Virus record (IMG/VR): IMGVR_UViG_3300031758_006345
Coordinates: 1-34,492 of that record
DNA from: a virus
Length of the DNA: 34,492 nucleotides
Strand: one strand, 5' to 3'
The position numbers and the translations under genes are program-made. The notes below the pieces were generated by a model. That model had not been told where the DNA came from. It was given only the letters and a program-made list of their open reading frames with translations, and searched no databases. Positions 11,766-29,938 of this stretch are shown in pieces (the stretch's first letter is position 1; each line of letters begins with the position of its first letter).

Positions 11766-11785
11766 CACAAAATAAAGAGAACGTT

Positions 11786-12852: not shown

Positions 12853-13200
12853 ATGGACGACACAGTAAAAAAAGCATTCGAAATATCTAATTTTATGTCT
12901 GCATTAGCAGAGCAAAAAAGAGTACTCTTAGAAGAGTACCATCAAAATTCCATATATTTTTTCAATGGCACAGTGTTTAAAGTTGATAAAGAGCTTATCA
13001 ATTTTGTTAAAACTTTGATTGACTTAGGGCAAGATTCGTTTGTCCTTATTGATAACAACAACACACCGGTAGATATACAAAATCCAAAGAAATTTCTACA
13101 AGAATTGCTCGACAAGTATTTCTTTGCATCAAACGCATATAATACTAAGTTTCAAAAATTAAAATCTAGCAGATCGGTAGAAAGTTTATTAGATATATGA
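12853..13200 (+). CDS. Small protein of unknown function, first gene of the 19-gene chain
   Basis: A 115-residue, mostly helical and charged protein (HEYHQNS-type segment, Lys-rich C terminus) with no recognised motif, signal peptide or membrane segment. The ATG at 12853 is set by an AGGA six bases upstream. The stop overlaps the next start as ATGA. It is the first gene behind the strong promoter, so it is probably expressed together with the glycosyltransferase-like and radical SAM genes that follow. It could be a small regulator or a structural accessory; the sequence does not decide. Confidence 0.6.
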   Translation: MDDTVKKAFEISNFMSALAEQKRVLLEEYHQNSIYFFNGTVFKVDKELINFVKTLIDLGQDSFVLIDNNNTPVDIQNPKKFLQELLDKYFFASNAYNTKFQKLKSSRSVESLLDI

Positions 13201-15406: not shown

Positions 15407-16329
15407 GTAAAACTATTAAAATTATAGATTGTGATGTGATTTATCTCAGCTATGATGAACCTAATGCAGAAGAAAACTATGCAGACTTGGTGACTAAAGT
15501 GCCGTGGGCTAAACGTGTTCATGGTATATACGGGAGTGATGCTGCTCACAAAGCCTGTGCAAAAATTGCCGACACTGAACGAGTAGTCATTGTTGATGGC
15601 GATAACATTGTTAAACCTAATTTGATAGAACAACGTGTTTCTTTTAAAGATGATACAGTTGATATGAACAAAGTAGTAATTAGTTGGGGAGCAAAGAACA
15701 TTATCAATGGTTTGATATATGGCAATGGTGGGATTAAATGCTGGCCAACTCAACTTATATTAGATATGAAAACTCATGAAAATGCTGACCCCAACAATCC
15801 AAAAACACAAGTTGATTTTTGTTGGGATATTAATTATACTCAAATAGATGAGTGTATGAGCGATGTCTATAATAATGCTAGTCCACAGCAAGCCTGGCGT
15901 GCAGGATTTCGTGAAGGTGTCAAAATGAGTTTGCTTGAGGGGTCCAAGTTGGCAGATTCAGGGCAACTAGCAAAATTAATTCATTGGAAAAATTTTCATA
16001 GATTGATGATATGGATGCACATAGGCAATGACGTCGATAATGGTCTATGGGCAATGTATGGTGCAAGACAAGGCTGTTATCTAACTAATTGTACCGATTG
16101 GGATCTTTTAAACGTCAGGGATTTCAAGTGGCTTAATGAATATTGGAAACAATACGTAAATCAAGATGAAAACAACTTAATGATAGAGGTTGAGAAACTC
16201 GGGGAAAAATTAAAGTCTGGTATCGGTTTAGATATGGCTGATGTTTTTACTTCAGCGCAGAGTAAAATGTTTAAAGCTATGTATACTAATCCTCCTAGGA
16301 TGAAAAATAATGCAGTCGTGAGTAATTAA
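15403..16329 (+). CDS. Glycosyltransferase-like protein with DGD motif
   Basis: A 308-residue protein. The start is 'DVIYLSYDEPNAEENYADL', followed by 'WAKRVHGIYG' and the D-G-D motif at 65-67 (VVIVDGDNIV), which sits where GT-A enzymes hold their DxD. Further conserved blocks shared with the next gene are 'INGLIYGNGGIKCWP', 'AWRAGFREGVK' and 'NGLWAMYGARQG'. The family is widespread in marine T4-like phages to my knowledge, but its substrate is not established here. It overlaps the previous gene by 4 nt and the next by one base. Confidence is moderate for a nucleotide-sugar-dependent activity. Confidence 0.55.
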   Translation: MSKTIKIIDCDVIYLSYDEPNAEENYADLVTKVPWAKRVHGIYGSDAAHKACAKIADTERVVIVDGDNIVKPNLIEQRVSFKDDTVDMNKVVISWGAKNIINGLIYGNGGIKCWPTQLILDMKTHENADPNNPKTQVDFCWDINYTQIDECMSDVYNNASPQQAWRAGFREGVKMSLLEGSKLADSGQLAKLIHWKNFHRLMIWMHIGNDVDNGLWAMYGARQGCYLTNCTDWDLLNVRDFKWLNEYWKQYVNQDENNLMIEVEKLGEKLKSGIGLDMADVFTSAQSKMFKAMYTNPPRMKNNAVVSN

Positions 16330-17003
16330 TGTACGATATAATTTTTATTAGTTATAATGAACCCAATGCTGATAAAAATTGGTTAGCATTGAAATCTAGA
16401 TTTCCTATGGCTAAACGTGTACATGGAATCAAAGGAATACATCAGGCGCATATCCATGCCGCTAAACAATGCTTTACTAATATGATATGGGTCGTTGATG
16501 GTGACGCCGTTATTCTTGACAGTTTTAATTTTGATTTTATTGCAGATAGAGAGGATTTTGTCTATGTTTGGAGAAGTAAAAATCCCATCAATGCTTTGGA
16601 ATATGGCTATGGCGGAGTCAAATTGTTTCCTAGACTAGCAACAATTAATATGGATACATCTAAACCAGATATGACTACAAGTATTAGTAATCATTTTAAA
16701 CCGATGCCACAAATTAGTAACATCACTGCATTTAATACTGATCCCTTTAATACATGGAAAAGCGCATTTAGGGAGTGTGTTAAATTATCTAGTAAAGTTA
16801 TTGATAGGCAAAAGAATGACGAAACTGATATTAGACTACGTATTTGGACCACTGTTGGGGAAGATAAAGACTATGGCAAATTCGCAGTTCTTGGTGCTCG
16901 AGCCGGTGTGGAATTTGGTATTAGTAATAAAAATAATTTTTCTGAGCTTAAAAAAATTAATGACTTTGAGTGGCTCAAAAATAAATTTGATAAAGGCGAA
17001 TAA
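16329..17003 (+). CDS. Shorter paralogue of the upstream glycosyltransferase-like protein
   Basis: A 224-residue protein clearly related to its upstream neighbour. It shares 'ISYNEPNADKNWLALK', 'MAKRVHGIKG', the D-G-D motif (57-59), 'INALEYGYGGVKLFP', 'TWKSAFRECVK' and 'YGKFAVLGARAG'. It is about 85 residues shorter, mainly at the C terminus and in the middle. The two therefore form a tandem duplicate that has diverged and may act on different positions of one glycan. The start overlaps the stop of the previous gene by one base (TAATG), and its own stop overlaps the next start in the same way. Confidence 0.55.
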   Translation: MYDIIFISYNEPNADKNWLALKSRFPMAKRVHGIKGIHQAHIHAAKQCFTNMIWVVDGDAVILDSFNFDFIADREDFVYVWRSKNPINALEYGYGGVKLFPRLATINMDTSKPDMTTSISNHFKPMPQISNITAFNTDPFNTWKSAFRECVKLSSKVIDRQKNDETDIRLRIWTTVGEDKDYGKFAVLGARAGVEFGISNKNNFSELKKINDFEWLKNKFDKGE

Positions 17004-17950
17004 TGGAAAGTAATGTAAACAGTGTTAGTTGGCTACACGGTCTAGAAGATTATTTTAGATTTAAACAACAGCATCAAGTGGCGGATCACTGCGCTAGATT
17101 TCTAAAAGTTCTTTATTCAGAAAATAAAGGACACAGTTTAAAAAATGTCTTTATGGAGGCATTACCCAATAACTTTAATAGAGATGATGTACAGCATCTA
17201 ATAAATTTTTATGCTCATACTGCTAATTCTAACGATAATTTAAAACTTAAAGAGATTAGTTCTACATTGAGCAAAATTTTTGCTGATTATAAACTTTTTA
17301 AAACAATTAATAAGTGTTATAATGGAACAATAGAAAATTTAGAAATTTGTGATGCATTTAGTAGAGGTCAAGTACAAAGTAAAATATGGATGACTAAAGA
17401 ATTAAGAAAAATTAATATCTTTTTTGATAATATTTTAGTTATTGGTAGTTGGTATGGACAAATAGTTTTTTATTTTGATGATATACTTGATGATATCGGA
17501 TATAAAAAAATTCGTTTATTAGATATAGATAAAACAGCTTGCCAAGTCAGTGATACGTTTTTTAATTATGATAAACTTGCAGAATATTCAGTAAAATCTG
17601 TAGTTTCCGATATTAATGAAACTGTATTACATAAAAACGGATATGAGTTGCCTATAGAAAATTTTAAAACAGGGGCAACATTTACTGAAAAATTTTTACC
17701 TAACTTAGTTATAAATTCAAGTTCTGAACATATGACAGAAGATTGGTTTAATAGGATAAGACATAAGAGCATGGATTCTCCGCCTATAGTTGCTATACAA
17801 AGTAATAATTTATTTGATATTCCTGAACATGTTAATTGTGTACATAGTATAGATCATATGAAAAAAAAGTTTCCTATGAAAGAAATATTATTTGAAGGGG
17901 AACTGCAACTTTCAGGATATAAACGTGTTATGCTAATAGGTAAACCATGA
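17003..17950 (+). CDS. SAM-dependent methyltransferase-like protein (Rossmann type)
   Basis: A 315-residue protein. The N-terminal ~135 residues are helical and of unknown role. From residue 142 there is a class I methyltransferase-like Rossmann pattern: 'NILVIGSWYGQIVFYF' (motif I position, with G-S-W-Y-G replacing the usual GxGxG), 'IRLLDIDKTAC' with the acidic end of strand 2 (D174/D176), then 'LVINSSSEHM' and a C-terminal strand 'YKRVMLIGKP'. It lies between glycosyltransferase-like and radical SAM genes with 1-nt and 4-nt overlaps, so a methylation step in the same pathway is plausible. The glycine loop is unusual, so activity is not certain. Confidence 0.55.
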   Translation: MESNVNSVSWLHGLEDYFRFKQQHQVADHCARFLKVLYSENKGHSLKNVFMEALPNNFNRDDVQHLINFYAHTANSNDNLKLKEISSTLSKIFADYKLFKTINKCYNGTIENLEICDAFSRGQVQSKIWMTKELRKINIFFDNILVIGSWYGQIVFYFDDILDDIGYKKIRLLDIDKTACQVSDTFFNYDKLAEYSVKSVVSDINETVLHKNGYELPIENFKTGATFTEKFLPNLVINSSSEHMTEDWFNRIRHKSMDSPPIVAIQSNNLFDIPEHVNCVHSIDHMKKKFPMKEILFEGELQLSGYKRVMLIGKP

Positions 17951-18171
17951 TTGATCTGGATAATATGGAAATGCGCGAGTTACAAAAAGAAAGTGCTAGA
18001 GCTTTGGCCACTATGGAGGCCACGAATAATAATATCAGCCGTTTTAATAAGGAAGCACATCATAATAGTCAAAATTGGTACAAAGCAGTTATTAGTTGGT
18101 ATATCAATGAATACGGCGGACTTCCGAGTTCTATAGGCCCAGGCAAAGACATTAAATTAATTTTAGAATGA
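17947..18171 (+). CDS. Small 74-residue protein directly before the radical SAM run
   Basis: A short protein with a helical, charged first half (MIDLDNMEMRELQKESARAL) and an aromatic second half (NWYKAVISWYINEYGG) ending in 'LPSSIGPGKDIKLILE'. It overlaps the gene before and the gene after by ATGA, so it is a true member of the chain. No known family is recognised. Because it is small and sits just before the first radical SAM gene, it could be a pathway substrate or carrier, but nothing in it matches a known precursor peptide. It could equally be a small accessory subunit. Confidence 0.6.
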   Translation: MIDLDNMEMRELQKESARALATMEATNNNISRFNKEAHHNSQNWYKAVISWYINEYGGLPSSIGPGKDIKLILE

Positions 18172-19340
18172 TTTATAGATACAACGAAATCAAAACAGTA
18201 CATTTAGAAATTACAGAACGTTGTAATGCTAGTTGTCCAATGTGTGCAAGGAATATTAATGGTGGCGAGGAAAATCCACATTTGAGCGATCATGAGCTCA
18301 GTCTCGAGGATTGCAAAAAAATATTTACACCGTCTTTTATACAACAGTTAGACAGAATGTATATGTGCGGAAATTTTGGGGACCCAGTCGCAGCCGTAGA
18401 TACATTAGAGGTCTTTGAATATTTTAGATCAAATAATCCCAAAATGAATCTAACTATGTACACTAACGGCAGTGCCAAAAAAACTGATTGGTGGCAGAAG
18501 TTAGCAAAAATTTTAGGAAAGAATGCATATGTGGTTTTTAGTATTGATGGATTAGAAGATACAAATCATTTATATCGACAAAATACCGTATGGTCTAAAA
18601 TAATGGAGAACGCCCAAGCATTTATTGATGCAGGCGGACGAGCAAGATGGGATTACATTGTATTTGCTCATAACGAACATCAAGTTGAAGAAGCAGAAGC
18701 TTTAAGTAAACAATTGGGGTTTGAAAAATTTCAGTACAAAAAGAGTGCAAGATTTTTTAGCAACGCCAGCGGGGTTACTAAAGAGATGCATCAAGCAGTG
18801 AATAGAAAAGGCGTCAGTACAACACTACTGCAAGCACCCACGAATCCAAAATATAGGAATAGTGTGTTAGATCAAATTAGTAAAGTTGTGGGCAAAGAGG
18901 AAAAAATAAAATTTCTACCGTCAAAAAAGTCCGAAGCATTAGGTATTCAAGGCAGTCAAAAATTTAATAATGATCCGTCCCTTAAAACCAAATTAGAAAA
19001 AGAGTTAGATAGTGCTATCATAAAATGCAAGGTGTCAGAAGAAAAATCGCTATATATAAGTGCAGAGGGAATAGTACAACCTTGTTGTTGGACAGCGGGT
19101 CAAATGTATGTTTGGTATTATAGACCCGAATCATCTCAAATTTGGCAGGCAATTAATGTTGTAGGAAAAGATAAAATTAACGCAAAATTAAACAATTTAG
19201 AAAATATAGTTGATGGATTATATTTCCAATCAGTTATTCCTGATAGTTGGAATAAATCTAGCTGTGCTGATGGAAAATTGGCAGTGTGTGCTAAAACATG
19301 CGGTACAAAATATGATGCATTTTCAGAACAGTTTAAATGA
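18168..19340 (+). CDS. Radical SAM protein with C-terminal SPASM-like cysteines
   Basis: A 390-residue protein. The radical SAM [4Fe-4S] motif CxxxCxxC is at C19, C23 and C26 (ITERCNASCPMCARN). The usual GGEP is replaced by 'CGNFGDP', a variant seen in SPASM-type enzymes. The C-terminal third has the cysteines of an auxiliary cluster: 'KCKVSEEKSLYISAEG' then 'IVQPCCW', and 'CADGKLAVCAKTCG' near the end. Enzymes of this layout often modify peptides or proteins by radical chemistry. The next gene is a paralogue. It begins with an ATGA overlap; arginine codons are mixed. Substrate unknown. Confidence 0.85.
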   Translation: MIYRYNEIKTVHLEITERCNASCPMCARNINGGEENPHLSDHELSLEDCKKIFTPSFIQQLDRMYMCGNFGDPVAAVDTLEVFEYFRSNNPKMNLTMYTNGSAKKTDWWQKLAKILGKNAYVVFSIDGLEDTNHLYRQNTVWSKIMENAQAFIDAGGRARWDYIVFAHNEHQVEEAEALSKQLGFEKFQYKKSARFFSNASGVTKEMHQAVNRKGVSTTLLQAPTNPKYRNSVLDQISKVVGKEEKIKFLPSKKSEALGIQGSQKFNNDPSLKTKLEKELDSAIIKCKVSEEKSLYISAEGIVQPCCWTAGQMYVWYYRPESSQIWQAINVVGKDKINAKLNNLENIVDGLYFQSVIPDSWNKSSCADGKLAVCAKTCGTKYDAFSEQFK

Positions 19341-20386
19341 ACATTGATAATATTAAAAAAATTGAATTAGAAATTACAAGTAACTGTAATGCTGCCTGTC
19401 CTGGTTGTGCTAGGACACAAAACCCTGACATACTTAAAATCCACAGTATTACTTTAGATGATATTAAGCGAATATTTCCTAATTCTAAATATATTAAAGG
19501 AAAACAATTTAAATTTTGTGGGGTGCTGGGCGACCCAGCATTTAATAGTGAATGTGTTGACATGGTAGAATATCTAACATCTTTTGGAGGATACTGTCAA
19601 CTTAGTACTAATGGTGGAATACAGACAGCAGATTGGTGGAGCCGTTTAGGCGCATTAAGTAACAGAACAAGAAAAGTAGATGTAGTGTTCTGTGTTGATG
19701 GTTATAAAGAAACCAATCACATATATCGAGTAAACACAGTGTTTGATGTTATAGAACGTAACATGGACTCTTATGCAAGAGCTGGTGGAACCGGTACCTG
19801 GATGTTTATTATTTTTGATCATAATGAATACGAATTACCATTAGCTGAAAATCATGCTAAAAGTTTAGGATTTAAATTTGCTACTAGAACAGGTATGAGA
19901 AATAGTATACATGATTGGACAGCAATAGTTCGTAAAAAAACTGAAGGCAGAATGGTTAAAGAACAAGTAATTATAACTACTACTGGTGAAAAAGAACATA
20001 GTAAAAAACAAGAAATAGTCGAACTACAAAAATTTATTGATAATCCAAAACAAGAACAAAAACAAGAAATTTTAAATTCAATAGTTTGTAAATTGATACA
20101 TGAAGGTGAAATTTTTATTGCGGCTGATCAAACTATGTGGCCTTGTTGTTTTTTATGGGACAGCTATTTTAAAAACAAAGAAAATATTAGAGAAAAACTT
20201 GAAGAATATGGCCAAGATTGGAATTGTTTAACGGATAAATCTATAAATGATGTATTACAAAATAACTGGTTTGACGAAGTATTAGCACTAAGCTGGGATC
20301 CAATACATAATAAACATTTAGATAGATGTATTCGAACATGTGCAAAAAATAAAGCATATCAAAATGAGATTAAATTTACAAAATGA
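19337..20386 (+). CDS. Radical SAM protein, SPASM-like, paralogue of the upstream gene
   Basis: A 349-residue protein with CxxxCxxC at C17, C21 and C24 (ITSNCNAACPGCART) and 'CGVLGDP' in place of GGEP. The middle aligns with the upstream gene: 'VDGYKETNHIYRVNTV' against 'IDGLEDTNHLYRQNTV', and 'AGGTGTWMFIIFDHNE' against 'AGGRARWDYIVFAHNE'. The C-terminal cysteines 'CKLIHEGEIFIAADQTMW' and 'PCCF', with 'CIRTCAKN' at the end, fit an auxiliary Fe-S cluster. It is the product of an old tandem duplication; the pair may act in succession or as a complex. It overlaps both neighbours by 4 nt. Confidence 0.85.
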   Translation: MNIDNIKKIELEITSNCNAACPGCARTQNPDILKIHSITLDDIKRIFPNSKYIKGKQFKFCGVLGDPAFNSECVDMVEYLTSFGGYCQLSTNGGIQTADWWSRLGALSNRTRKVDVVFCVDGYKETNHIYRVNTVFDVIERNMDSYARAGGTGTWMFIIFDHNEYELPLAENHAKSLGFKFATRTGMRNSIHDWTAIVRKKTEGRMVKEQVIITTTGEKEHSKKQEIVELQKFIDNPKQEQKQEILNSIVCKLIHEGEIFIAADQTMWPCCFLWDSYFKNKENIREKLEEYGQDWNCLTDKSINDVLQNNWFDEVLALSWDPIHNKHLDRCIRTCAKNKAYQNEIKFTK

Positions 20387-21789
20387 CAACACCTAAATTA
20401 CCGTCAGAAACTTTTTGCATATTGCCGTGGGTACATTTAAGTACACGACCAGACGGCAGTATGCGTGTATGTTGTACTGCTAACGCTAGTAGTGTTGGAC
20501 CAACTAATGATAAAAAACACGGCGGAATGGTCGGCATTCTAAAAACAGATGAAGGCAAACCAGCTAACTTAAATGTAAGCGATTTTCAATCTAGTTGGAA
20601 TAGTACTTATATGCGAAACGTTCGTAAGCAAATGCTTAACGGAGAACAACCGCCTAGCTGTATTAAATGCTATAAAGAAGAAGCCGCAGGACACAATAGC
20701 AAACGTATGTGGGAAACTGCCTATTGGAGTGAACGTACTGATTTAGAAAAGTTGATTGCAGACACAGCTGAAGATGGATCAGTCCCACCACAGTTAAACT
20801 ATATTGATTTACGTTTTGGTACAAAGTGCCAGCTAGCCTGTATAATGTGCAGTCCGCATGACAGTAGCGGTTGGATTAAAGACTGGCAAGCAATACATCC
20901 TAAAATTGAAAACCCAACATTAAAGCAAACAACATTGTGGGCTAACAAGGGCAGTACTAACGGCAGTAGTTATAACTGGCATAAAAACAATCCAGTATTT
21001 TGGCAACAGTTCTACGAACAAATCCCAAATATGCAACAGCTATATTTTGCAGGTGGTGAAAGTCTTATTATTGAAGAACACTACGAAATTTTAGAAGAGT
21101 GCATTCGGCAAGGTCATGCAAAAAATCTTGAATTACGTTATAACAGTAATGGCGTAGAGTGGAGAGATGATTTATTTGACTTGTGGAAACAATTCAAACT
21201 TGTACGTTTTCATTATAGCGTAGACAGTATTGAAGATATGAATGATTACATTCGCTATCCTAGTAAGTGGGAACGAACTGCTGAAGTGTTTCATATTTTA
21301 GATACACAAACACCAGCTAACACAGAAGTTACTGTAGCATGTGCTGTACAGGCTTTAAACATCTACTACATTCCAGATTTTATTAAATGGAAATTAGAGC
21401 AAGGCTTTAAGAAAATCAACATGTGGCCGTTTGGCGCAGGCGGAGTAAATTATCACTTTGTTTATCACCCGCCTCACTTGAACGTTAAAGTTTTACCTAA
21501 ATGGTTTAAAGAAGAATGCCGTAAGAAATATCAGGCATTTTATCCATGGTGGGAAGCTAACTGGGAAAAGGGTGTACCAGATTGGCACAAAGGAAAAGTA
21601 ACGTATGAACAGTGGCGTGATGCAGGGTATGGTATTAAACGTTTAGAAGGAATGTTGCAATTTATGGAAAGTGAAGATTGGAGTATTAGATTGCCAGAGA
21701 TGAAGGAATTTTTAGAAATTTGTGATAAGCAACGCAACATTAGTTTTTATGAAACGTTTCCAGATATGAAGGATATTTTTAATGTCTAA
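20383..21789 (+). CDS. Radical SAM protein with N-terminal twitch-type cysteine set (A)
   Basis: A 468-residue protein. Before the core lies a cluster-binding region: C12 in FCILPW, C30/C31 in SMRVCCTAN, and C93/C96 in PPSCIKCYKEE. This is the N-terminal twitch layout of a radical SAM family frequent in marine phages. The core CxxxCxxC is C149, C153, C156 (TKCQLACIMCSP), and 'FAGGESLI' replaces GGEP. It closely resembles the gene at 23986 (compare 'HPPHLNVKVLP' with 'HPKHLNIRVLP'). Arginine is encoded mostly by CGN (about 14 of 16), unlike the next gene. Substrate unknown. Confidence 0.85.
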   Translation: MTTPKLPSETFCILPWVHLSTRPDGSMRVCCTANASSVGPTNDKKHGGMVGILKTDEGKPANLNVSDFQSSWNSTYMRNVRKQMLNGEQPPSCIKCYKEEAAGHNSKRMWETAYWSERTDLEKLIADTAEDGSVPPQLNYIDLRFGTKCQLACIMCSPHDSSGWIKDWQAIHPKIENPTLKQTTLWANKGSTNGSSYNWHKNNPVFWQQFYEQIPNMQQLYFAGGESLIIEEHYEILEECIRQGHAKNLELRYNSNGVEWRDDLFDLWKQFKLVRFHYSVDSIEDMNDYIRYPSKWERTAEVFHILDTQTPANTEVTVACAVQALNIYYIPDFIKWKLEQGFKKINMWPFGAGGVNYHFVYHPPHLNVKVLPKWFKEECRKKYQAFYPWWEANWEKGVPDWHKGKVTYEQWRDAGYGIKRLEGMLQFMESEDWSIRLPEMKEFLEICDKQRNISFYETFPDMKDIFNV

Positions 21790-23122
21790 GGAACCAATAG
21801 TCTGTTATTATGCACTTGGAGCCATCAATTATAAAAATGGCTATGTAACCAGTTGCCCTCAACAGTCAGATCAGTTACATCTTTATAAAGACACTAAAAT
21901 TTTAAAACCTTCTGAAATTATAAATTCTGAAAATTTTAAGAAACACAGAAAAGAATTAATGAGCGGCACATGGAGTCAAGGGTGCCATCTGTGTAAAGAA
22001 GCTGAGGAAATCGGTGCAAAATCTATGAGACAAGATTTTGCCATCAAAGACGATGAATTAAAACATTATAATCATGAAACTGGTGAAATTGATTTTGCAT
22101 TAGTTAAACACGTCGAGTTAAGGTTTAGTAATGCATGTAATATGGCATGTCTACATTGTAGCGATGTTTATTCTAGTGGTTGGATGAGCAAATTAAAAAA
22201 TTATGTACCGGATAAAGATGATTGGGACAAAAAATTGGTACAATTAACTAGAACTTTTCATAAATCTTCACAAAATGAGGATTTATCTATATCAATATCT
22301 ATAGAAGAAATGGAAGTTATTGTTGATGATTTAATTTTAAATTTTCCTAATCTAAAAAGGGTAGATTTTGCTGGTGGAGAAGTATTGTATCAAAAACAAT
22401 TTTTTCCTTGTTTAAAAAAATTAGCAGATCACCCGAACATTAAAAATATGGGAATTTCATTCCATACAAATTTTAATGCAAAATTCGATCCTGAAGAATT
22501 GGCTAGATTATTAAAACCTTTTAAGAAGGCCAATATTTCAATGTCTTTAGACGCAGGCACAAACATTTATTCATATTTTAGAACAGGTGATTGGGAAGTT
22601 CTTAAAAAAAATATTGAAAAATTTAGATCTGTTGATAATACAACGATAATGGCAATTAAATGTACAACTAGCGTTTATCAAATTATGGATTTAGAAAATA
22701 TTTTTAAATCGTTTTTCACTCTCGATGTTGATAGGATTGATTCGGCGATTGTTTATACACCGAGATATTTAAACCCAGCAGTGCTAAATTTGTACTTCAA
22801 AGATTATGTTTATGAAGATATTCAAAAAACATATAAAATTATTAGTGAAGAAAATATTAGAAGACGTGCTAATATGGAATTAAATTCCAAAAGGAGATCA
22901 TGGAATCAACTTGAAAATAGATTTACTGATATTTCTAGTGCGGTAACTGCATTAAAAGATATAGAGAAATTTGTATTAAATCACCAAAGAAGTGAAAGTG
23001 AGTATAATTCTTTTATTGCCTATATTGAAAAAACAGATAAAATTTGGCAAAGAAATTTTAATGATTATATGAAAAAATATAAAATTATTAACGGAAAACT
23101 TGAAAGGATTCGTCATGCATGA
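21782..23122 (+). CDS. Radical SAM protein with divergent N-terminal twitch (B)
   Basis: A 446-residue protein with core CxxxCxxC at C119, C123, C126 (SNACNMACLHCSD) and 'DFAGGEVLY' for GGEP. The N-terminal cysteine set is reduced: C8, a single C25 (TSCPQQ) where the relatives have CC, and C68/C71 (GCHLCKEA), which still offers four ligands. A long Lys/Arg-rich helical tail follows the barrel. Arginine codons are almost all AGA/AGG (about 18 of 20), in contrast to the genes at 20383 and 23986. It overlaps both neighbours by 8 nt. The different terminal parts suggest a different partner or substrate. Confidence 0.8.
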   Translation: MSKEPIVCYYALGAINYKNGYVTSCPQQSDQLHLYKDTKILKPSEIINSENFKKHRKELMSGTWSQGCHLCKEAEEIGAKSMRQDFAIKDDELKHYNHETGEIDFALVKHVELRFSNACNMACLHCSDVYSSGWMSKLKNYVPDKDDWDKKLVQLTRTFHKSSQNEDLSISISIEEMEVIVDDLILNFPNLKRVDFAGGEVLYQKQFFPCLKKLADHPNIKNMGISFHTNFNAKFDPEELARLLKPFKKANISMSLDAGTNIYSYFRTGDWEVLKKNIEKFRSVDNTTIMAIKCTTSVYQIMDLENIFKSFFTLDVDRIDSAIVYTPRYLNPAVLNLYFKDYVYEDIQKTYKIISEENIRRRANMELNSKRRSWNQLENRFTDISSAVTALKDIEKFVLNHQRSESEYNSFIAYIEKTDKIWQRNFNDYMKKYKIINGKLERIRHA

Positions 23123-23993
23123 TATTTCCAATAGCATTTATAGAGATTTATCGGCTTTAGAAAAAATAATAAGGGATGAAGCTGAAATAAAACTTTTTAA
23201 TTATAATGGATTAGACATTCCTTTTAGTGGTAAATGGAGGAAAATAGCAATTAATTTATCGGGCGGTGCAGATAGTGCTTGTCTGACCTATTTACTTTGT
23301 AAAATAATTACTGAAAATAATTTTAATTGTAAAATCGATGTTATTACACATGTACGCTGCTGGACTACAAGGCCTTGGCAGCAGCCAATAAGTGTAAAGA
23401 TTTTTACGAAATTAAAAAATATGTTCCCTGATATTATTAATCAAAGATACGAAAATTTTATAGCCCCTCAAATAGAACATGGTGTTATTGGATACATTTA
23501 TAAAGATTTAGAAACTGGAGAAGATAGGAGCGGCGATCAGCTACAAGTTAGCGAATTTAATATTTACTGTGCTTATAAACATCGCTATAATGCAATTTTT
23601 AATGCAACATCTATGAATCCTCCACAGACTGATTTTCCAAAAAAAATGAAAGACAGAGAAAAACAGCCGGAACATGGAGCGTTGCGTGATTTAATTTTGC
23701 ATGTGACTGATGATGGTAATGACGATTTATTTTTATGCCATCCTTTTAGATTTGTTGACAAATCATGGATTGTTGCTCAATATTACAAATACAATATTTT
23801 AGATTTGTTTGAATTAACAAGAAGTTGTGAAGGTGATGTTACTCATGAAAATATAAAAAGTGTTGTACCTGATTTTATATCATATTCTTCCGATCAAGTT
23901 GTTCCTGAATGCGGCACTTGTTTTTGGTGTCTGGAAAGAAACTGGGCACTTAGTAATGTGAATGAAGTTTTAGAAAAAATTAAAGATGTCTAA
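23115..23993 (+). CDS. QueC-like PP-loop ATP pyrophosphatase
   Basis: A 292-residue protein. The start is ATG 23115, with AAAGGA upstream and an 8-nt overlap (ATGCATGA), rather than a TTG at 23100. The PP-loop SGGADS is at residues 49-54 (AINLSGGADSACLTYLL), which in this superfamily binds ATP and adenylates the substrate. The C terminus has a zinc-type Cys set: C in 'LTRSCEG' and 'PECGTCFWCLERNWAL', as in QueC/ExsB (7-cyano-7-deazaguanine synthase). No FolE, QueD, QueE or DpdA homologue is seen in the window, so deazaguanine synthesis is not shown. It may instead catalyse an ATP-dependent amidation or ligation in the radical SAM pathway. Confidence 0.75.
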   Translation: MHDISNSIYRDLSALEKIIRDEAEIKLFNYNGLDIPFSGKWRKIAINLSGGADSACLTYLLCKIITENNFNCKIDVITHVRCWTTRPWQQPISVKIFTKLKNMFPDIINQRYENFIAPQIEHGVIGYIYKDLETGEDRSGDQLQVSEFNIYCAYKHRYNAIFNATSMNPPQTDFPKKMKDREKQPEHGALRDLILHVTDDGNDDLFLCHPFRFVDKSWIVAQYYKYNILDLFELTRSCEGDVTHENIKSVVPDFISYSSDQVVPECGTCFWCLERNWALSNVNEVLEKIKDV

Positions 23994-25290
23994 TACTTTT
24001 TGTCCTATTCCTTGGAACTTTCAGGCTATACGTGCTAACGGTGATATGCGTGTATGTTGTCAAGCCAACGTAACAAAAAATCAAGGAGTAATACGTAAAT
24101 CTGATGGTACTGCATTTAACGCAGGTCGCGACGTACTAGTGGATGCTAGAAACAATGATATGATGAAAGCCATGCGTGTTAATATGCTTAATGGGGTTTG
24201 GAGTGACGAATGCGGTCGCTGTCGTAATGAAGAAGCGACCGGACTTGTAAGTCGCCGTACCTATGAAAACGAACAATGGCAAATGAGCATTGAAGAAGTC
24301 AGAAGCAAAACAAAAGCTGACGGAAGTATAGACCCGACTGATTTTCCTGTAGTTTATTATGATTTACGTTTTGGTAATTTTTGTAATTTAAAATGTCGTA
24401 TGTGCGGCCCAACGGATAGTAATGCTTGGTATGACGATTGGATCAAATTAACTGGTACTAACAAATTTAAAGATACTAGCGGAGTAATGGAAATTGTGGA
24501 CGGAAATGTTGATGCATTTAACTGGCCAGAGTACGAACCTTTTTGGGAACAATTAGAAGCAAACATTCATAATATTCAGCATGTTTATTTTGCTGGCGGT
24601 GAGCCAATGCTTATTGAAAGACACTATGATTTTTTAGAACGTTGTGTAGAAAAAGGCGCAGCCAGTCATATTGTTATTGAGTATAACACTAACATGAGTA
24701 CTTTGCCCACTAGGGTCACCGAGTTATGGAAGCACTTTAAACAAGTTCGTGTAGGTGCTAGTGTTGATGGAATGGGTAGTATGCAAGAATATCAGCGCAG
24801 TCCGGCTAAGTGGGAAAAGACATTAAACAATTTGCGTAAAATTGATCAACTGCCAGATAATATTTTTGGTTGGTTAGCGTTCACAGTTACAGCATATAAC
24901 GTTAATCATATGATTGATTTTATGAAATGGAAATTAAAAGATGCAAATTTTAGAAAAATTAATTTCACTAACAAGCGGCCAATCATTACACATCATGTAG
25001 CACATCATCCAAAACATTTAAACATTAGAGTACTGCCGCCAAAGTATAAGGAAGAACTTACAAAAAGTTTTGAAGATTTTGTTTGGTGGGTAAAAGATAA
25101 TGGATTTAATGAACATGTTGTAAAACAAGCAGAGGCAATTTCTAAAGGTATTATTAGCTACATGAATAGCGATAATTATTATGATACGCATTGGGTTGAG
25201 TTTGTAAATTATACGAATAAGTTGGATCAGATACGAGGCGAAAGTTTGATCGATGTTGAACCCAAATTTAAGGAATATTTGAATGGCTAG
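23986..25290 (+). CDS. Radical SAM protein with N-terminal twitch-type cysteine set (C)
   Basis: A 434-residue protein with the same architecture as the gene at 20383. The N-terminal set is C6 (FCPIPW), C24/C25 (DMRVCCQAN) and C76/C79 (DECGRCRNEE). The core CxxxCxxC is C133, C137, C140 (GNFCNLKCRMCGP), with a complete 'FAGGEPM'. CGN codons make up most arginines (about 17 of 23). It follows the QueC-like gene and precedes the split radical SAM pair, overlapping both by 8 nt. The close paralogy of A and C, with other genes between them, suggests duplication followed by insertion or shuffling. Confidence 0.85.
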   Translation: MSNTFCPIPWNFQAIRANGDMRVCCQANVTKNQGVIRKSDGTAFNAGRDVLVDARNNDMMKAMRVNMLNGVWSDECGRCRNEEATGLVSRRTYENEQWQMSIEEVRSKTKADGSIDPTDFPVVYYDLRFGNFCNLKCRMCGPTDSNAWYDDWIKLTGTNKFKDTSGVMEIVDGNVDAFNWPEYEPFWEQLEANIHNIQHVYFAGGEPMLIERHYDFLERCVEKGAASHIVIEYNTNMSTLPTRVTELWKHFKQVRVGASVDGMGSMQEYQRSPAKWEKTLNNLRKIDQLPDNIFGWLAFTVTAYNVNHMIDFMKWKLKDANFRKINFTNKRPIITHHVAHHPKHLNIRVLPPKYKEELTKSFEDFVWWVKDNGFNEHVVKQAEAISKGIISYMNSDNYYDTHWVEFVNYTNKLDQIRGESLIDVEPKFKEYLNG

Positions 25291-25993
25291 TTTTGATACT
25301 GTTGATTTATTAGACGGTAACGTTTTTCAAGTTACTTGGGATCTAGGCCGCCGATGTAATTACGATTGCAGTTATTGTCCAACACACAGGCATGATAATT
25401 TTAGCCCACATGCTAGTTTAGAAGACTTAATCAAGAATAGTGATTTTGTTCTTGAATATATTAACTTGTACATGACTTATAGAAATTATAAAAGAGCTAG
25501 TATAAGTTTTACTGGCGGGGAACCGACTGTTAATCCAAATTTTATTCCATTTATAAAATATTTAAAAGATACATATAACGAAAAATACAAGGACAAATAT
25601 GACTGCACCTTTGCTTTGACAAGTAATGGGGCTATGAGTGAAAAAATGGCAAATCAAATTATGGATAACTTAAATCATATTACTATTAGTTACCATGCAG
25701 AAGCAGATGATTATTTAAAAAATCAAGTCAAGGATAGAATGGTACAGTTTGCAACATTCGGGCCAGAAAAGAAATGCACTCTAAGCATTAATGTTATGTT
25801 TCATGCGGGATATTTTGATGAATGTAAAGACGTATGTTCATTTTTAGATAGTAAAAATATAAAATATGTGCCTAGAATTATAGGTGAAGAACCAGATAGT
25901 CGAAGTAATTTTGCACACAAATATACAGAACAACAAATTACATGGATGAAAAACTATTGGGACAATAATACTAAAAAGGTACAACAGCAATGA
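25283..25993 (+). CDS. Radical SAM core protein, N-terminal half of a split enzyme
   Basis: A 236-residue protein with CxxxCxxC at C25, C29, C32 (LGRRCNYDCSYCPTH) and 'SFTGGEPTVNP'. It ends soon after the barrel and lacks any C-terminal cluster domain. The gene at 28778 has the same start motif (W-x-LGR-x-CNY-x-CSYC) plus a C-terminal cysteine domain; the product of the next gene matches that missing domain. The stop overlaps the next start as ATGA, so both halves are probably made together. A frameshift error in the sequence is possible but less likely, since the second half has its own proper start. Confidence 0.8.
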   Translation: MASFDTVDLLDGNVFQVTWDLGRRCNYDCSYCPTHRHDNFSPHASLEDLIKNSDFVLEYINLYMTYRNYKRASISFTGGEPTVNPNFIPFIKYLKDTYNEKYKDKYDCTFALTSNGAMSEKMANQIMDNLNHITISYHAEADDYLKNQVKDRMVQFATFGPEKKCTLSINVMFHAGYFDECKDVCSFLDSKNIKYVPRIIGEEPDSRSNFAHKYTEQQITWMKNYWDNNTKKVQQQ

Positions 25994-26451
25994 GTGAAGA
26001 AAATAAAGAGTTAGGTCTTAAAATAGGAAGACCTTGCTGTGGTAGTAGGACAATGTGCCTTAGTAAAGATGGTGAAGATCGTAAAAGTAAGTTTGTTGAC
26101 TACAGAGAATTTAAAGGATGGTACTGTAGTGTCAATTGGTTCTTCATGCATATTGAACAACAGACTGATAGTGTGTTTCATCATCAAACCTGTCAAGCAC
26201 AATTTGGACAAACACGTGGTCCGATAGGAAAATTAAGTGAAGGTGATAAAATTCTTGCTGAGTTAAAACAACGCTTAGAAAGCGGAACTATGCCAACTAT
26301 TGTTTGTCCAAAACATACATGTGGATGTGGTCTTTGCGCACCAAAAAGCATGTATAAAGAAAATTATCAACGTGTGTTATTCAATCATGTTGATAAAACG
26401 GTATTTGCAAATTCAATGAATGAGGACAACGGTAAAAATTTAAATGATTAA
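25990..26451 (+). CDS. Cysteine-rich protein, C-terminal cluster half of a split radical SAM enzyme
   Basis: A 153-residue protein with nine cysteines (16, 17, 23, 46, 68, 106, 111, 113, 116). 'FKGWYCSVNW' aligns with 'FKDWECSSGY' (C311) of the fused gene at 28778; 'HHQTCQA', 'GPIGKLSEGDKI' and 'TIVCPKHTCGCGLCAPKS' align with 'SYSCHDA', 'LGNIETGFKL' and 'KSCITNSCVSSADSK'. The two halves total 389 residues against 386 for the fused paralogue. I infer an auxiliary Fe-S subunit that completes the upstream radical SAM core. It is connected to the next gene by an 8-nt overlap. Confidence 0.7.
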   Translation: MSEENKELGLKIGRPCCGSRTMCLSKDGEDRKSKFVDYREFKGWYCSVNWFFMHIEQQTDSVFHHQTCQAQFGQTRGPIGKLSEGDKILAELKQRLESGTMPTIVCPKHTCGCGLCAPKSMYKENYQRVLFNHVDKTVFANSMNEDNGKNLND

Positions 26452-27673
26452 TTCAAAGACATATTGCAAATATCCGTTTAAACAAATAGCTATAAAAGAT
26501 TTTGAGAATGACAAACTTAGAACTTTTTGGCCTTGTTGTATGATGGGTAATCATATAGATGATGAGTCTTCTAATAGACTTGGGATTGAAAATGTGCATC
26601 TATTAACACCGGATGAAATGTATAATCATCCTAGAATGGCTGAATTAAGAAATAACCTATCAACTGGAATCAAAGACCTTGCTTGTAAAGTATGTTGGCA
26701 ACAGGAAGAAAAAGGCTTAAAATCTTTTAGAGAATTTAGTCATGATGATGAAATGCCTGAGGGAGATGGGTTATCTATGATTGATATTTCAGCATCAAAC
26801 ATATGTAATCTTCAATGCAGAATGTGTACACCAGGTGCAAGCCATCAGTTAATGAAAGACTATAATTATTTTGAAAAAAATGGTCTAATGCCAATAGTTA
26901 ATAGTTCTATTAACAGATTTAGTAAAAGTGACGTCCTAAGAATCACTGAAAGTCCGCAATGGAATTGGTTGATGAATAACACTCATCAGATTAAATTAAT
27001 TAGAGCATCAGGTGGTGAACCTTTTTATGATAATAAAGTCATGCAACTGTTAAAAAAATATGTTGAAACTGGTGCTGCAAAAGATACAATTTTACATTTT
27101 CATACAAATGCAACACAATTTACTGATGAAGTTGTTGATATTTTAAAAGAATTTAAAAGTAATAAACATGCATTTAGTGTTGATGGATATGGAAAAATTT
27201 ACGAATACATTCGATATCCTGCAACATTTGAGCAATTACAAAATAGTATATCAAATTATATTAACAAATTAACTAATTATGATTCTATTTTAAATTTTAC
27301 AATGGTAGTCAACGCCTACAATGTTTTAAACATACAGGATTATGCATTTTGGACACAGGGGATTTCTAGTAAACCATCTGTAGTTTATGGTGAATGTTAC
27401 CCTTTAGATCGAGGGATATCGTTAATACATATGCCAATTAAGTTACTAACGATAGCTAAAGATAGAGTAATGTATGTTTTAAAAAACTCCGTAAATTTAA
27501 ATAATGGTCACTTAGAAAATTTGATAACTCAGATAGATTTTGCAATTAATAATAATAAAGAAAATAAGAAAAAAATGCTTGATGAAATCACATTATTTGA
27601 TTTGTCAAGAAATCAAAGCTATAAAAATTTCTTAGATCCACTTTTAATAGAGTGGCTGAATGAGGTTGATTAA
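26444..27673 (+). CDS. Radical SAM protein with N-terminal twitch-type cysteine set (D)
   Basis: A 409-residue protein with the N-terminal set C8 (TYCKYPF), C31/C32 (WPCCMMG) and C81/C84 (ACKVCWQQEE), and the core CxxxCxxC at C111, C115, C118 (SNICNLQCRMCTPG). 'RASGGEPFYD' provides the GGEP. Eleven of about 13 arginines use AGA, so it differs in codon style from genes A and C. The end of the protein is Asn/Lys-rich. It overlaps the Cys-rich gene by 8 nt and the next gene by one base. Likely part of the same pathway; substrate unknown. Confidence 0.85.
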   Translation: MINSKTYCKYPFKQIAIKDFENDKLRTFWPCCMMGNHIDDESSNRLGIENVHLLTPDEMYNHPRMAELRNNLSTGIKDLACKVCWQQEEKGLKSFREFSHDDEMPEGDGLSMIDISASNICNLQCRMCTPGASHQLMKDYNYFEKNGLMPIVNSSINRFSKSDVLRITESPQWNWLMNNTHQIKLIRASGGEPFYDNKVMQLLKKYVETGAAKDTILHFHTNATQFTDEVVDILKEFKSNKHAFSVDGYGKIYEYIRYPATFEQLQNSISNYINKLTNYDSILNFTMVVNAYNVLNIQDYAFWTQGISSKPSVVYGECYPLDRGISLIHMPIKLLTIAKDRVMYVLKNSVNLNNGHLENLITQIDFAINNNKENKKKMLDEITLFDLSRNQSYKNFLDPLLIEWLNEVD

Positions 27674-28785
27674 TGAGTAAATTTTGCCCGCTACCTTTTA
27701 ATCATATGGCCATTAGACCTAATGGACGAGTATACCCGTGCTGCATATTTCGTTGGGATAATGTTCCTGAAGATTTACATTTAGATCATCCTGATGTTTT
27801 TCATCATCCTTTTTTAGAAGATATTAGAAATCAAATGAGACGTGGAGAAATTGTAGATGGATGTAAAACATGTCATTTAAATGAAGAACAGTTTGGATCT
27901 AGTATGAGGACGTTCGTTTTAAAGCATATACATAAAATAGGTGGATCGTTAGAACCGATAGATGAACCGAAAATTACTTACTTAGATCTTGCTTTGAGCA
28001 ATGCCTGCAATAATAAATGCAGGATGTGTAATCCAGAATTAAGTACTAGTTGGTACAGTGATTGGAAAGCATTGGGAAATTCTATACCTAAAGGATTGTT
28101 ACAAAAACCGCAAAATAATTTGGATAAAATTAATTTTAGTAATTTACGATTCTTAAAATTAATTGGTGGTGAGCCCTTAATGGAGCAAGAAAAGTTTATT
28201 GATATATTATCTAAATGTGATCGTAAAAACTTATCTGTGTTATTAACCACCAATGTAACTTTGAAACCAAATGAAGAATTATTTAGATTAATGAAAGAAT
28301 GTAAATCGTGTAATATAAATTTAAGTATTGATGCATACGGGGTATTAAATGATTTTTTAAGAAAAGGCAGTAATTGGCAAATTATTACTGAAAATATAAA
28401 ATGGTTTTATGATAATTTTAATGATGGTCTTGGGGTACATTCAGTAGTAAGCATTTATAATATTAATCATTTAGATATTCTTAGAAATTTTTTAAAAGAA
28501 AAATTTTCTAAGATACATCACGAGCACGTACTTGTTGATGGTCCTGATTGGATGCGTCCTAGACATTTGCCTGAAAATATTAAATTAAAAATTAAGGATT
28601 TATTTAGACTGTGGTCACAAGATAGTGATTGGCCGTTTTTGAAAATATTAGAAGATGAATTATCAAAAACAGGTGATTTTAATATTTTTATGAAAAACGA
28701 TAAAAAGTTAAGTGATATTAGAAATGAAAATTGGGCGTATGCAAATCCAGAACTTTATGAAATGGTAAAAAGTTATTATGAGTAA
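27673..28785 (+). CDS. Radical SAM protein with N-terminal twitch-type cysteine set (E)
   Basis: A 370-residue protein, the shortest of the twitch group. N-terminal cysteines are C5 (FCPLPF), C23/C24 (VYPCCIF) and C64/C67 (DGCKTCHLNEE). The core CxxxCxxC is C112, C116, C119 (SNACNNKCRMCNPE) and 'KLIGGEPLME' follows. Arginine codons are mixed (about 6 CGN and 11 AGR). The start overlaps the previous stop by one base (TAATG), and the stop overlaps the next start by 8 nt. Its N-terminal set and core are closest in outline to gene C, but the middle has diverged. Confidence 0.85.
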   Translation: MSKFCPLPFNHMAIRPNGRVYPCCIFRWDNVPEDLHLDHPDVFHHPFLEDIRNQMRRGEIVDGCKTCHLNEEQFGSSMRTFVLKHIHKIGGSLEPIDEPKITYLDLALSNACNNKCRMCNPELSTSWYSDWKALGNSIPKGLLQKPQNNLDKINFSNLRFLKLIGGEPLMEQEKFIDILSKCDRKNLSVLLTTNVTLKPNEELFRLMKECKSCNINLSIDAYGVLNDFLRKGSNWQIITENIKWFYDNFNDGLGVHSVVSIYNINHLDILRNFLKEKFSKIHHEHVLVDGPDWMRPRHLPENIKLKIKDLFRLWSQDSDWPFLKILEDELSKTGDFNIFMKNDKKLSDIRNENWAYANPELYEMVKSYYE

Positions 28786-29938
28786 TTTAGCAAAATCTGC
28801 TTACGACTTCACGAAAATACCATATGAAGACATTGTGCGTGTGGGTCAACGTACAATGCTATATCGAGATTTATTTACAGTAAGTTGGTTGTTGGGCCGA
28901 TTTTGTAATTATAAATGCAGTTATTGTTGGCCATATGCACGTAGTGATAAAAAAGATCACAGACCAACTGAGTTGTGTTTAAAGACAGTAAATGAAATAA
29001 AACGACAAGCACGTGAACGTGGATTTAACAGTTTTCATTTTAGTCTTAGTGGCGGTGAGCCAACATTTCATCCGGGCTATATTGATATTTTAAATCATCT
29101 AAATAATGATGTGGCTAATACAAACTATACTAGTGTTCATATGACTACAAATATGAGCCGTAGTTTGAAATGGCATAAGGATGAATATTGTCCAGCAGTT
29201 AGTAAATTTCATCGTGCTAGTATTACTGCAAGTTTGCATACCGAACACGTTAATACAAAAGAAAAAATGCAAGATTTTGCAGATAAACTAATTTTGTGTC
29301 AAGAACATGACGTGCAAGTGACTATTAATATGGTCATGGTTCCAGAATGGTTTGATCGTGATTACGAAAATGCAATGTTTTTTCATGAACACGGTATTAA
29401 CGTAACGCTAAAGCCGCAAAGTGATCCAACAGCAAGTCGAGTAGTAGATGGATATACTCCTGAAATGCTCAAAGTATTGCATAACGGAATGCCTCAAAGA
29501 GCCTATACGGAACAAAAAGCCGCACTCGCCAAACTAGTTGATAGACCTGAACCTAAATTTAAAAAGACTCCTGATCCTATATACTCTCAAGATTCAATAC
29601 CACAACATTTTCAAGTTGAGTTTGTAGATAAAAACAAAAAAGTTTGGTATATGGATCAAGCTGAAAGATTTAATGCCTTCAATTTTAATCGATTTAAAGA
29701 TTGGGAATGTTCAAGTGGGTATCGTAGTATAATTATTAGAGAACCGGATGGTAGTATAAAGCGTAGTTACAGTTGTCATGATGCCCCATTGGGAAATATT
29801 GAAACTGGGTTTAAATTATTTGAAGGTCCGAAGTCATGCATTACAAACAGTTGCGTTAGTAGTGCAGATTCTAAGATTCCAAAAAGAGCCCCGGATACAA
29901 AGTTACCTCTATGGCCCGGGGATAGTACGTTTAATTAA
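28778..29938 (+). CDS. Radical SAM protein with fused C-terminal cysteine domain
   Basis: A 386-residue protein with core CxxxCxxC at C43, C47, C50 (LGRFCNYKCSYCWPY) and 'SLSGGEPTFHP'. The C-terminal domain (from about residue 300) has C311 in 'FKDWECSSG', then 'SYSCHDAPLGNI' and 'KSCITNSCVSSADSK', forming a probable auxiliary Fe-S site. It is the fused counterpart of the split pair at 25283/25990. Arginine is mostly CGN. It is the last gene of the chain; its TAA stop lies within TTAATTAA, which also holds the stop of the opposing thyX gene. Confidence 0.85.
   Translation: MSNLAKSAYDFTKIPYEDIVRVGQRTMLYRDLFTVSWLLGRFCNYKCSYCWPYARSDKKDHRPTELCLKTVNEIKRQARERGFNSFHFSLSGGEPTFHPGYIDILNHLNNDVANTNYTSVHMTTNMSRSLKWHKDEYCPAVSKFHRASITASLHTEHVNTKEKMQDFADKLILCQEHDVQVTINMVMVPEWFDRDYENAMFFHEHGINVTLKPQSDPTASRVVDGYTPEMLKVLHNGMPQRAYTEQKAALAKLVDRPEPKFKKTPDPIYSQDSIPQHFQVEFVDKNKKVWYMDQAERFNAFNFNRFKDWECSSGYRSIIIREPDGSIKRSYSCHDAPLGNIETGFKLFEGPKSCITNSCVSSADSKIPKRAPDTKLPLWPGDSTFN

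Follow-up and report, generated by a model that had tools for sequence, protein, structure and literature searches.

Radical S-adenosylmethionine enzymes crowded into a phage island: a conserved core, bacterial counterparts and a possible role in surface-glycan tailoring

In pelagimyophages and cyanomyophages, a hypervariable host recognition cluster (HRC) holds tail fibres and glycosyltransferases; cassettes of radical S-adenosylmethionine (rSAM) genes tell two close genomes apart, and the authors interpreted the glycosyltransferases as modifying the O-chain against coinfection (PMC7029224, available in part). The Campylobacter phages CP220 and CPt10 encode 11 and 12 rSAM proteins and carry an interchangeable module of five, the phage rSAM genes being taken as metabolic boosters (PMC2853527, available in part). 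Twelve rSAM genes, reported as Fe-S-related, are found in the 183 kb T4-like marine virus TARA_ERS488813_N000010 (PMC5332604, available in part). Here we describe a dense run of such genes in IMG/VR record IMGVR_UViG_3300031758_006345, a viral stretch of 34,492 bases, classed as linear, which is referred to below as the window. Between positions 18168 and 29938 it holds nine rSAM genes, one PP-loop ATPase gene (g21) and one gene for a small cysteine domain (g24) in one uninterrupted run. Genes are numbered as in Table 1; L and G numbers denote loci and genomes.

We tentatively read this locus as an island that builds and tailors a surface glycan, part of the host-recognition region in an uncultured T4-like jumbo phage and probably remodelling the envelope of the infected host, a reading to which we give slightly less than an even chance. 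The glycosyltransferase candidates g14 and g13, possibly with g10 and g11, and the methyltransferase-like g15 would assemble a sugar structure or attach it. A common modification would be made by the conserved rSAM core of g17, g19 and g27, and strain-specific modifications would come from g18, g20, g22, the g23/g24 pair, g25, g26 and the PP-loop ATPase g21. Host surface polysaccharide would in this way most likely be remodelled during infection, altering the receptor against competing phages. Known rSAM chemistry includes dehydrogenation, epimerisation and C-H functionalisation, and the reactions envisaged here are drawn from these.

The run is translationally coupled: ten of its ten junctions overlap by 1-8 nt, and there is no gap between its ends. 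Open reading frames (ORFs) were called with a custom greedy script, and g21 was counted from the ATG at 23115, chosen over a TTG at 23100. Each of the nine rSAM ORFs holds exactly one CX3CX2C, the motif for the SAM-binding [4Fe-4S] cluster; after residue shuffling, the expected number of the nine with the motif is 0.04, and it is absent from the other 25 window ORFs. A sequence-only reading of this DNA had listed nine such cores at the same gene starts, with all genes overlapping, and ORF calling and translation bear out both statements. The same reading allowed for an assembly artefact joining unrelated contigs. This is ruled out by three independently assembled contigs with the same gene order, L008 and L011 (g13-g34) and L010 (g18 onward), which are 60-94% identical to the window at g19 and g21. 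Pseudogenes or chance ORFs are also ruled out, given the retained motif and dN/dS values of 0.03-0.34 where computable, which are indicative only, as dS is near saturation and several genes gave no value.

How widespread is this arrangement among viruses? Scans of viral contigs gave 9 relatives of g21; for g19 there were 219, of which 80 were kept, and for g27 at least 595, of which 80 were kept. As relatives are the best 80 per scan, the conservation of g19 and g27 is judged on close matches. The resulting 169 viral loci overlap; grouping those with a sampled exact 100-mer in common leaves 86 groups, only identical proteins having been collapsed in the counts. In the closer relatives, the island lies between tail-fibre genes and g9-g16 on the left and g27, followed by minus-strand genes from thyX to MoxR, on the right; the island map covers all viral loci but about L103 to L109. 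The densest loci (L032, L039, and L053) have up to 14 rSAM-type ORFs in 21 kb. Counting distinct proteins of 100 aa or more, the 169 loci encode 1,247 from first to last rSAM gene, with 807 in four rSAM clusters, a share favoured by the span definition because rSAM genes set the ends, and 80 in a PP-loop cluster. Coupling extends to these loci: neighbouring genes overlap or abut at 1,309 of the 1,672 island junctions, with a median spacing of -4 nt.

Within this family of islands some genes recur and others come and go. In 75 of 80 loci g19 is preceded, at a distance of 1-8 genes, by its nearest g17 orthologue, and no such orthologue was found in the other 5; g13 or g14 is present in 69/80 g19 loci and a g27 orthologue in 43/80, many loci ending at 10 kb or at contig ends. 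Among 18 genes compared between the window and L008, g19 (94%) and g27 (90%) are the best conserved, with thyX at 78% and g34 at 87%. Conversely, g20, g25 and g26 are missing as a set in the close relatives L097, L098, L100 and L017. Forty dereplicated g27-anchored loci gave 21 pairs, not independent of each other, that share at least half of their downstream genes; the island is less similar than the downstream region in 15 of these pairs and not in 6. Clustering was examined in 16 long virus records (159-400 kb) from the g19, g27 and g21 scans, two of which (G012 and G018) look like one virus. Each has 3-22 g19-type matches. Among the matches listed, those of about 100 bits or more are clustered against random placement in 15/16 records (P ≤0.022, uncorrected), with P 0.073 in G023, which answers the concern in the sequence-only reading that such genes might never cluster in other phages.

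The proteins interspersed with the rSAM enzymes are mixed. A Pfam inventory was made of 71 representatives, comprising 69 of the 91 non-rSAM clusters between rSAM genes plus an AMP-binding and a desaturase protein from the flanks. Among the matches listed, which cover 25 of 30 families, there are five FkbM methyltransferases, three nitroreductases and single matches to carbamoyltransferase, UDP-glucose dehydrogenase and cytidylyltransferase; Asp/Arg hydroxylases are also present. The cluster labels SDR, PLP, 2OG, SGNH, QueE and HTTM were given by eye unless a Pfam match is cited.

Is the core restricted to viruses? A g19 profile run against one genome from each of 84,980 species found 124 relatives, and 46 of the 75 loci kept bear Bdellovibrionota-type names. 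Close g19 orthologues (>600 bits) occur at nine loci of this bacterial scan. Four loci, L176, L180, L195 and L225, in metagenome-assembled genomes (MAGs) named Neisseriaceae, Rickettsiales and Gammaproteobacteria, look phage-derived, having relatives of g13-g16 or of the tail region. The first three, which are among the nine loci with close g19 orthologues and also have g16, are probably phage contigs binned into MAGs; because such binning seems to occur, MAG names are not indicative of hosts. Nine genomes searched whole gave 8-27 matches each. Among 144 Bdellovibrionota genomes, g19 (E ≤1e-100) is found in 7 and g27 (E ≤1e-60) in 8, with g27 close to g19 in 7/7; only one of the 137 g19-negative genomes has g27 (G120, on a 5.3 kb contig). 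Six of the seven g19-positive genomes (G001, G002, G004, G005, G008, and G122) were known already from the g19 profile scan, so that G064 is the only new one, and G122 is the genome of L178 and not independent of it. Five of the seven (G001, G004, G005, G008, and G122) have a g17 relative above 300 bits within the stretch that carries g19 and g27, and G064 and G002 have weaker ones there. In bacteria, g19 and g27 are usually accompanied by relatives of g17 and g13-g15.

In two of these genomes the surroundings are informative. On a 1.62 Mb contig of G064, a g19-g27-g14 run starts 3.9 kb after a Pfam-confirmed surface-polysaccharide locus with a nucleotidyltransferase, two Polysacc_synt_2 proteins, a UDP-GlcNAc 2-epimerase, a group 1 glycosyltransferase and a bacterial sugar transferase. 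In G008, Pfam identifies a dTDP-sugar isomerase, a DegT aminotransferase and a GT2 protein at 4.7 kb from the island. Separately, four Bdellovibrionota rSAM islands (L179, L193, L199, and L229) have a recurrent membrane protein, similar by eye to HTTM/vitamin-K-dependent carboxylase-like proteins, and in L179, L193 and L199 a partner gene of 150-165 aa adjoins the HTTM-like gene.

Upstream of the rSAM genes lies the glycosyltransferase-like set. The AlphaFold2 model of g14 (pLDDT 92.8) gives VIA-align Z scores of 9.3-11.9 among the 50 matches listed, mostly over about 130 residues, to a mixture of glycosyltransferase A (GT-A) enzymes and cytidylyltransferases. Foldseek ranks the fucosyltransferase WrtF, a mannosyltransferase and RmlT highest (E from 4e-5), and its rows also include TarS and polypeptide N-acetylgalactosamine (GalNAc) transferases. 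D57 and D59 of the DGD motif (g14 numbering) are invariant in 25/25 g13/g14 relatives; g13 itself has a sub-threshold Glyco_tranf_2_3 match, and a PDB sequence search with the g13/g14 family had no matches. The model predicts that g14 is a GT-A-fold glycosyltransferase. The g10 protein has no Pfam match above noise, neither g10 nor g11 matches NCBIfam, and g11 weakly matches phrog_1903, a family of unknown function. No Pfam match was found for g15. Among 18 distinct long fusion proteins from 21 loci (cluster 32), 14 match g13, g14 and g15 together and four match g13 and g14 only. The window copy of g16 has no cysteine, and the protein is conserved over its full length, with no variable core, in an alignment of 33 sequences.

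What kinds of rSAM enzymes make up the island? PF04055 exceeds its cut-off in seven of the eight rSAM proteins scanned (g17, g19, g20, g22, g23, g25, and g26), and g18 falls just under it (cut-off 29.5 bits). In a separate set of ten proteins Pfam gave nothing useful for eight, and in a second set of ten nothing for three. Five enzymes (g19, g20, g22, g25, and g26) exceed the curated cut-off of 170 bits for NF033640, twitch domain-containing radical SAM protein, and thus belong to a subfamily whose model states no reaction; g17, g18, g23 and g27 are under that cut-off and pass no other NCBIfam cut-off among the matches listed (for g17, g23 and g27, the best 25 of 31-36). In these five of the nine enzymes, the auxiliary Fe-S (twitch) domain is N-terminal, not C-terminal. 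In a 22-row alignment of g19 relatives, C30, C93 and C96 are invariant and C12 is conserved in 90% or more of the rows, with the core cysteines C149, C153 and C156 downstream. Positions 4-77 of the 22-row profile, built from the five enzymes and their relatives, match BtrN residues 165-239 (E 2e-4). Solved structures of BtrN match this N-terminal part over their C-terminal auxiliary domain (E 2e-4 and 9e-5), so the domain has been relocated to the N-terminus. BtrN-type twitch enzymes have their auxiliary domain C-terminal to the core, unlike the window family. BlsE also scores against the auxiliary-domain profile; we take BtrN and BlsE to be sugar-type rSAM enzymes. The AlphaFold2 model of g19 (pLDDT 83.6, pTM 0.86) has an rSAM fold, with VIA-align Z scores of about 11 to viperin, anSME, SkfB, DesII and BlsE, which are tied. 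There are also sub-threshold profile matches to SkfB- and PapB-type models.

In the two main rSAM clusters, 557/560 and 126/126 of the relatives with 330 aa or more keep the CX3CX2C motif. The main cluster has 605 proteins with the motif, which lies more than 80 residues from the N-terminus in 426; the 412 of these with suitable length form 143 groups at 50% identity in one sample. Aligned by hhalign, the g24 family matches the C-terminus of single-gene g23 relatives (E 8e-55). In 27 of 28 loci, some of them overlapping, g24 is the gene immediately after g23; the 28th locus starts at a contig end. By homology, g23 and g24 are one enzyme split over two genes. Of the three architectures that the sequence-only reading had distinguished, the N-terminal auxiliary type and the core followed by C-terminal cysteines or a cysteine domain are upheld, whereas g23 is a bare core with its C-terminal domain in a separate gene.

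The PP-loop protein had been described as a QueC-like ATPase. The window copy of g21 has SGGADS and a QueC-like cysteine motif. In a 20-row alignment of g21, SGGxDS and C238, C266, C269 and C272 are invariant, with varying cysteine spacing. There is a weak PHROG match (phrog_1550, E 2.6e-5) and a sub-threshold TilS match in NCBIfam; Pfam gives no match at E 0.01, and neither Pfam nor NCBIfam matches QueC. The earlier description fits only loosely, and g21 as a QueC, that is, a 7-cyano-7-deazaguanine synthase, is rejected because the QueC family models are unmatched. A Bdellovibrionales island (L199) has three g21-related PP-loop paralogues on the minus strand (1228-1995, 5234-6010, and 12496-13245) along with an rSAM of B12-binding type, recognised by eye. 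Cluster 30 (19 distinct proteins, 27 loci), QueE-like by eye, is encoded on the minus-strand flank, at L107:18823-19674 (minus) and in relatives, hinting at deazaguanine chemistry in these phages apart from the island.

The relatives point to the kind of phage involved. T4-type capsid protein gp23 is over the cut-off in 12 of the 16 long virus records, and the 400 kb record encodes a gp23 with 69% identity to those of Sinorhizobium phage Phosso and Vibrio phage 2.275.O, and with 66% identity to those of Escherichia phages 121Q and PBECO4. These similarities suggest a T4-like jumbo lineage; as the window has no capsid gene, its own placement rests on its relatives. The phage origin assumed from the start is confirmed by the tail and baseplate PHROGs upstream of the run, the virus record and gp23 in the long relatives. 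Among 50,697 phage records, g27, g14 and g21 have no match, and weak matches to isolate phages were found for g19 in two and g17 in four. In Vibrio phage K566 (L252, 161.5-168.3 kb), four proteins related to the main rSAM cluster are encoded within about 7 kb, and three carry an rSAM annotation.

A cultured phage offers a link to the flanks of the island. Pelagibacter phage Mosig EXVC030M (MT647606) has, beside its tail fibres, rSAM, hydroxylase, nitroreductase, aminotransferase and carbamoyltransferase genes. Three of its genes are annotated MoaA-like, two of which match the rSAM clusters at 23-33%, and it has no g19 or g27 match. In the jumbo-phage locus L171 (12500-18635, plus strand), five Mosig genes directly follow g27 in the same relative order, at identities of 51% (aminotransferase-like), 71% (dioxygenase), 42% (methylase), 65% (acetyltransferase) and 73% (hydroxylase). 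This similarity suggests block exchange between jumbo-type phages and pelagimyophages.

What, then, would the island act on? That it encodes a dedicated pathway and not isolated auxiliary genes, as proposed from the sequence, is supported by the conserved core, the coupled genes and the sharing of that core with bacterial islands; a complex glycan as product gains support from the predicted fold of g14 and from the two bacterial islands near surface-polysaccharide genes. Several points weigh against the glycan reading. The substrate, the reactions, their order and the purpose of the pathway are all inferred, as is the transferase activity of g14, because cytidylyltransferases have the same fold. 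The window has no recognised sugar-nucleotide enzyme, and the carbamoyltransferases, nitroreductases and oxygenases of related islands serve other pathways too. The similarity to BtrN and BlsE is weak (E 2e-4 to 5e-5), and better PDB matches include the peptide maturase SkfB, a lipid synthase and viperins. Of the nine bacterial genomes with neighbourhoods read, Pfam was applied to polysaccharide candidates in two only, without a random-neighbourhood control; the glycosyltransferases near the L193, L229 and L280 islands were recognised by eye only, the stretches read of L279 (G122) and L281 (G002) have no polysaccharide genes, and that of L278 is too short to count either way. Finally, the Mosig-like genes adjoin the rSAM span and lie outside it.

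SPASM/twitch rSAM enzymes are often peptide maturases. The run could thus modify a peptide similar to the ribosomally synthesised and post-translationally modified peptides (RiPPs), or a virion protein, its enzymes cross-linking, epimerising or oxidising residues together with hydroxylases and methyltransferases. The SkfB- and PapB-type matches, the Asp/Arg hydroxylases and the FkbM methyltransferases agree with this. However, no precursor gene fits: the window junctions all overlap, gaps of at least 90 nt occur at 23 of the 1,672 island junctions (for ORFs of at least 45 aa in cis), and g16, the sole small neighbour, is conserved throughout and lacks a variable core. Pfam scans of ten proteins, a set without g27, reported no peptide-recognition domain. 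With no space for a precursor, a RiPP in cis is disfavoured, and peptide or protein modification as a whole seems distinctly unlikely. The same glycan machinery might instead decorate the tail fibres or other virion proteins of the phage, altering binding or evading defence. The island does adjoin tail-fibre and baseplate genes, the comparable set of Mosig is also next to tail fibres, and polypeptide GalNAc transferases are among the g14 rows. Because bacterial chromosomes carry copies of g19 and g27, in two cases near polysaccharide genes, a purely virion-protein role is disfavoured, and we consider decoration of the virion unlikely. It has also to be asked whether there is any joint product, since auxiliary metabolic genes for cofactors, Fe-S clusters, nucleotides or DNA-base modification might simply gather at a recombination hotspot. 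Hypervariability, the mixed inventory, the QueE-like gene (by eye) elsewhere in relatives and the published readings as metabolic boosters (PMC2853527, available in part) or Fe-S related (PMC5332604, available in part) fit such an assembly. The co-occurrence of g17 and g19 in 75/80 viral loci and of g19 with g27 in bacteria argues against it, as do translational coupling and the rSAM share of the span (807/1,247, favoured by its definition), and it is the least probable of the readings weighed here.

If surface-glycan tailoring is the function, a more specific scheme can be drawn. The fixed three-rSAM core might create a handle on a surface glycan, on which exchangeable permuted-twitch rSAM enzymes would combinatorially write strain-specific sugar modifications not known elsewhere; the core would be common to predatory Bdellovibrionota and the tailoring genes traded among marine phages. 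In this full form we find the scheme rather doubtful.

Table 1. Positions of the genes of the island and its left flank in the window, with the basis for each assignment.
Feature	Position	Strand	Basis
g5-g8, tail-fibre-type genes, left flank	6855..12781	+	PHROG tail matches for g5-g7; relatives of g7 and g8 precede the island in other contigs
g10 and g11, glycosyltransferase-like	13197..14841	+	DxD-like motifs, by eye
g13, paralogue of g14	15403..16329	+	GT-A fold by alignment, conserved DGD
g14, predicted GT-A-fold glycosyltransferase	16329..17003	+	AlphaFold2, VIA-align, Foldseek
g15, methyltransferase-like	17003..17950	+	Rossmann-type motif, by eye
g16, conserved protein of 74 aa	17947..18171	+	Alignment of 33 sequences
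g17, rSAM with C-terminal cysteines, core member	18168..19340	+	PF04055, 32.9 bits
g18, rSAM with C-terminal cysteines	19337..20386	+	CX3CX2C at residue 17; PF04055, 28.7 bits
g19, rSAM with N-terminal auxiliary domain, core member	20383..21789	+	NF033640, 415 bits; rSAM-fold model
g20, rSAM with N-terminal auxiliary domain, variable presence	21782..23122	+	NF033640, 215 bits
g21, PP-loop ATPase with QueC-like Cys motif	23115..23993	+	SGGxDS and cysteines, alignment
g22, rSAM with N-terminal auxiliary domain	23986..25290	+	NF033640, 385 bits
g23, bare rSAM core of a split enzyme	25283..25993	+	PF04055, 46.8 bits
g24, C-terminal cysteine domain of the g23 enzyme, encoded separately	25990..26451	+	hhalign E 8e-55
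g25, rSAM with N-terminal auxiliary domain, variable	26444..27673	+	NF033640, 217 bits
g26, rSAM with N-terminal auxiliary domain, variable	27673..28785	+	NF033640, 245 bits; SPASM PF13186 at residues 5-67
g27, rSAM core with C-terminal cysteine domain, core member, right border	28778..29938	+	At least 595 viral-contig relatives

Further features lie on both sides of the island. No PHROG tail match was found for g8. Among the tail genes, g3 (3497-6175) encodes a subtilisin-like protease (phrog_3677 protease match). At 32098-34425, on the minus strand, g33 is VWA/metallopeptidase-like by eye and matches PHROG 1314, labelled HNH endonuclease; it adjoins a MoxR-type ATPase gene (phrog_1297). Relatives of g33 occur in 767 phage records, the best (47%) in PA5oct-type jumbo phages.

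If the glycan reading is right, the island is an unusually dense store of uncharacterised rSAM enzymes, and their chemistry, product and selective advantage could be tested in one setting. Known examples of phage-driven surface remodelling include simple glycosyl or acetyl transfer, to which radical tailoring would then be added. The recurrent g17, g19 and g27, with g14, make a short list for first assays, and tractable organisms are suggested by the gene pool common with a cultured Pelagibacter phage and the core common with Bdellovibrionota.

How new is such a locus? The sequence-only reading knew of no described pathway with this gene set, which proved too broad: the HRC cassettes, the CP220/CPt10 module and the 12 rSAM genes of a T4-like marine virus have all been published (PMC7029224, PMC2853527, and PMC5332604, each available in part). 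In a literature search, with most subscription journals outside its reach, no paper was found on the g17-g19-g27 core with g13-g15, on g19 and g27 in Bdellovibrionota, on an N-terminal auxiliary domain at this scale or on the split g23/g24. Hypervariable phage islands with rSAM genes were thus known already; the conserved core, the bacterial counterpart and the domain permutation at scale are new as far as this search reached.

The described systems resemble the window in different respects. TARA_ERS488813_N000010, likened here from the description in the available part of its source, is also T4-like and marine and has a comparable number of rSAM genes. CP220 and CPt10 likewise have clustered rSAM genes, five rSAM genes of CP220 being annotated in one run with an amidinotransferase and two nucleotide-diphospho-sugar transferase-fold genes; in contrast, CP220 proteins are only 23-29% identical to the marine ones where matched, and searching the phage collection gave them no match to g27 or g19. 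Mosig shares four genes (two oxygenase-like, one acetyltransferase-like and a desaturase) with the flanks of the rSAM span in jumbo-phage loci at 65-73% identity. A further parallel is the HRC, which lies between VrlC and the neck gene gp14, as far as the available part of its source describes it. As there, the island is hypervariable and adjoins tail fibres in a T4-like marine phage, with glycosyltransferases and rSAM cassettes. It differs from the HRC in being dominated by rSAM enzymes (807/1,247), in its recurrent g17/g19/g27 core and in a gp23 that points to jumbo-type relatives of T4.

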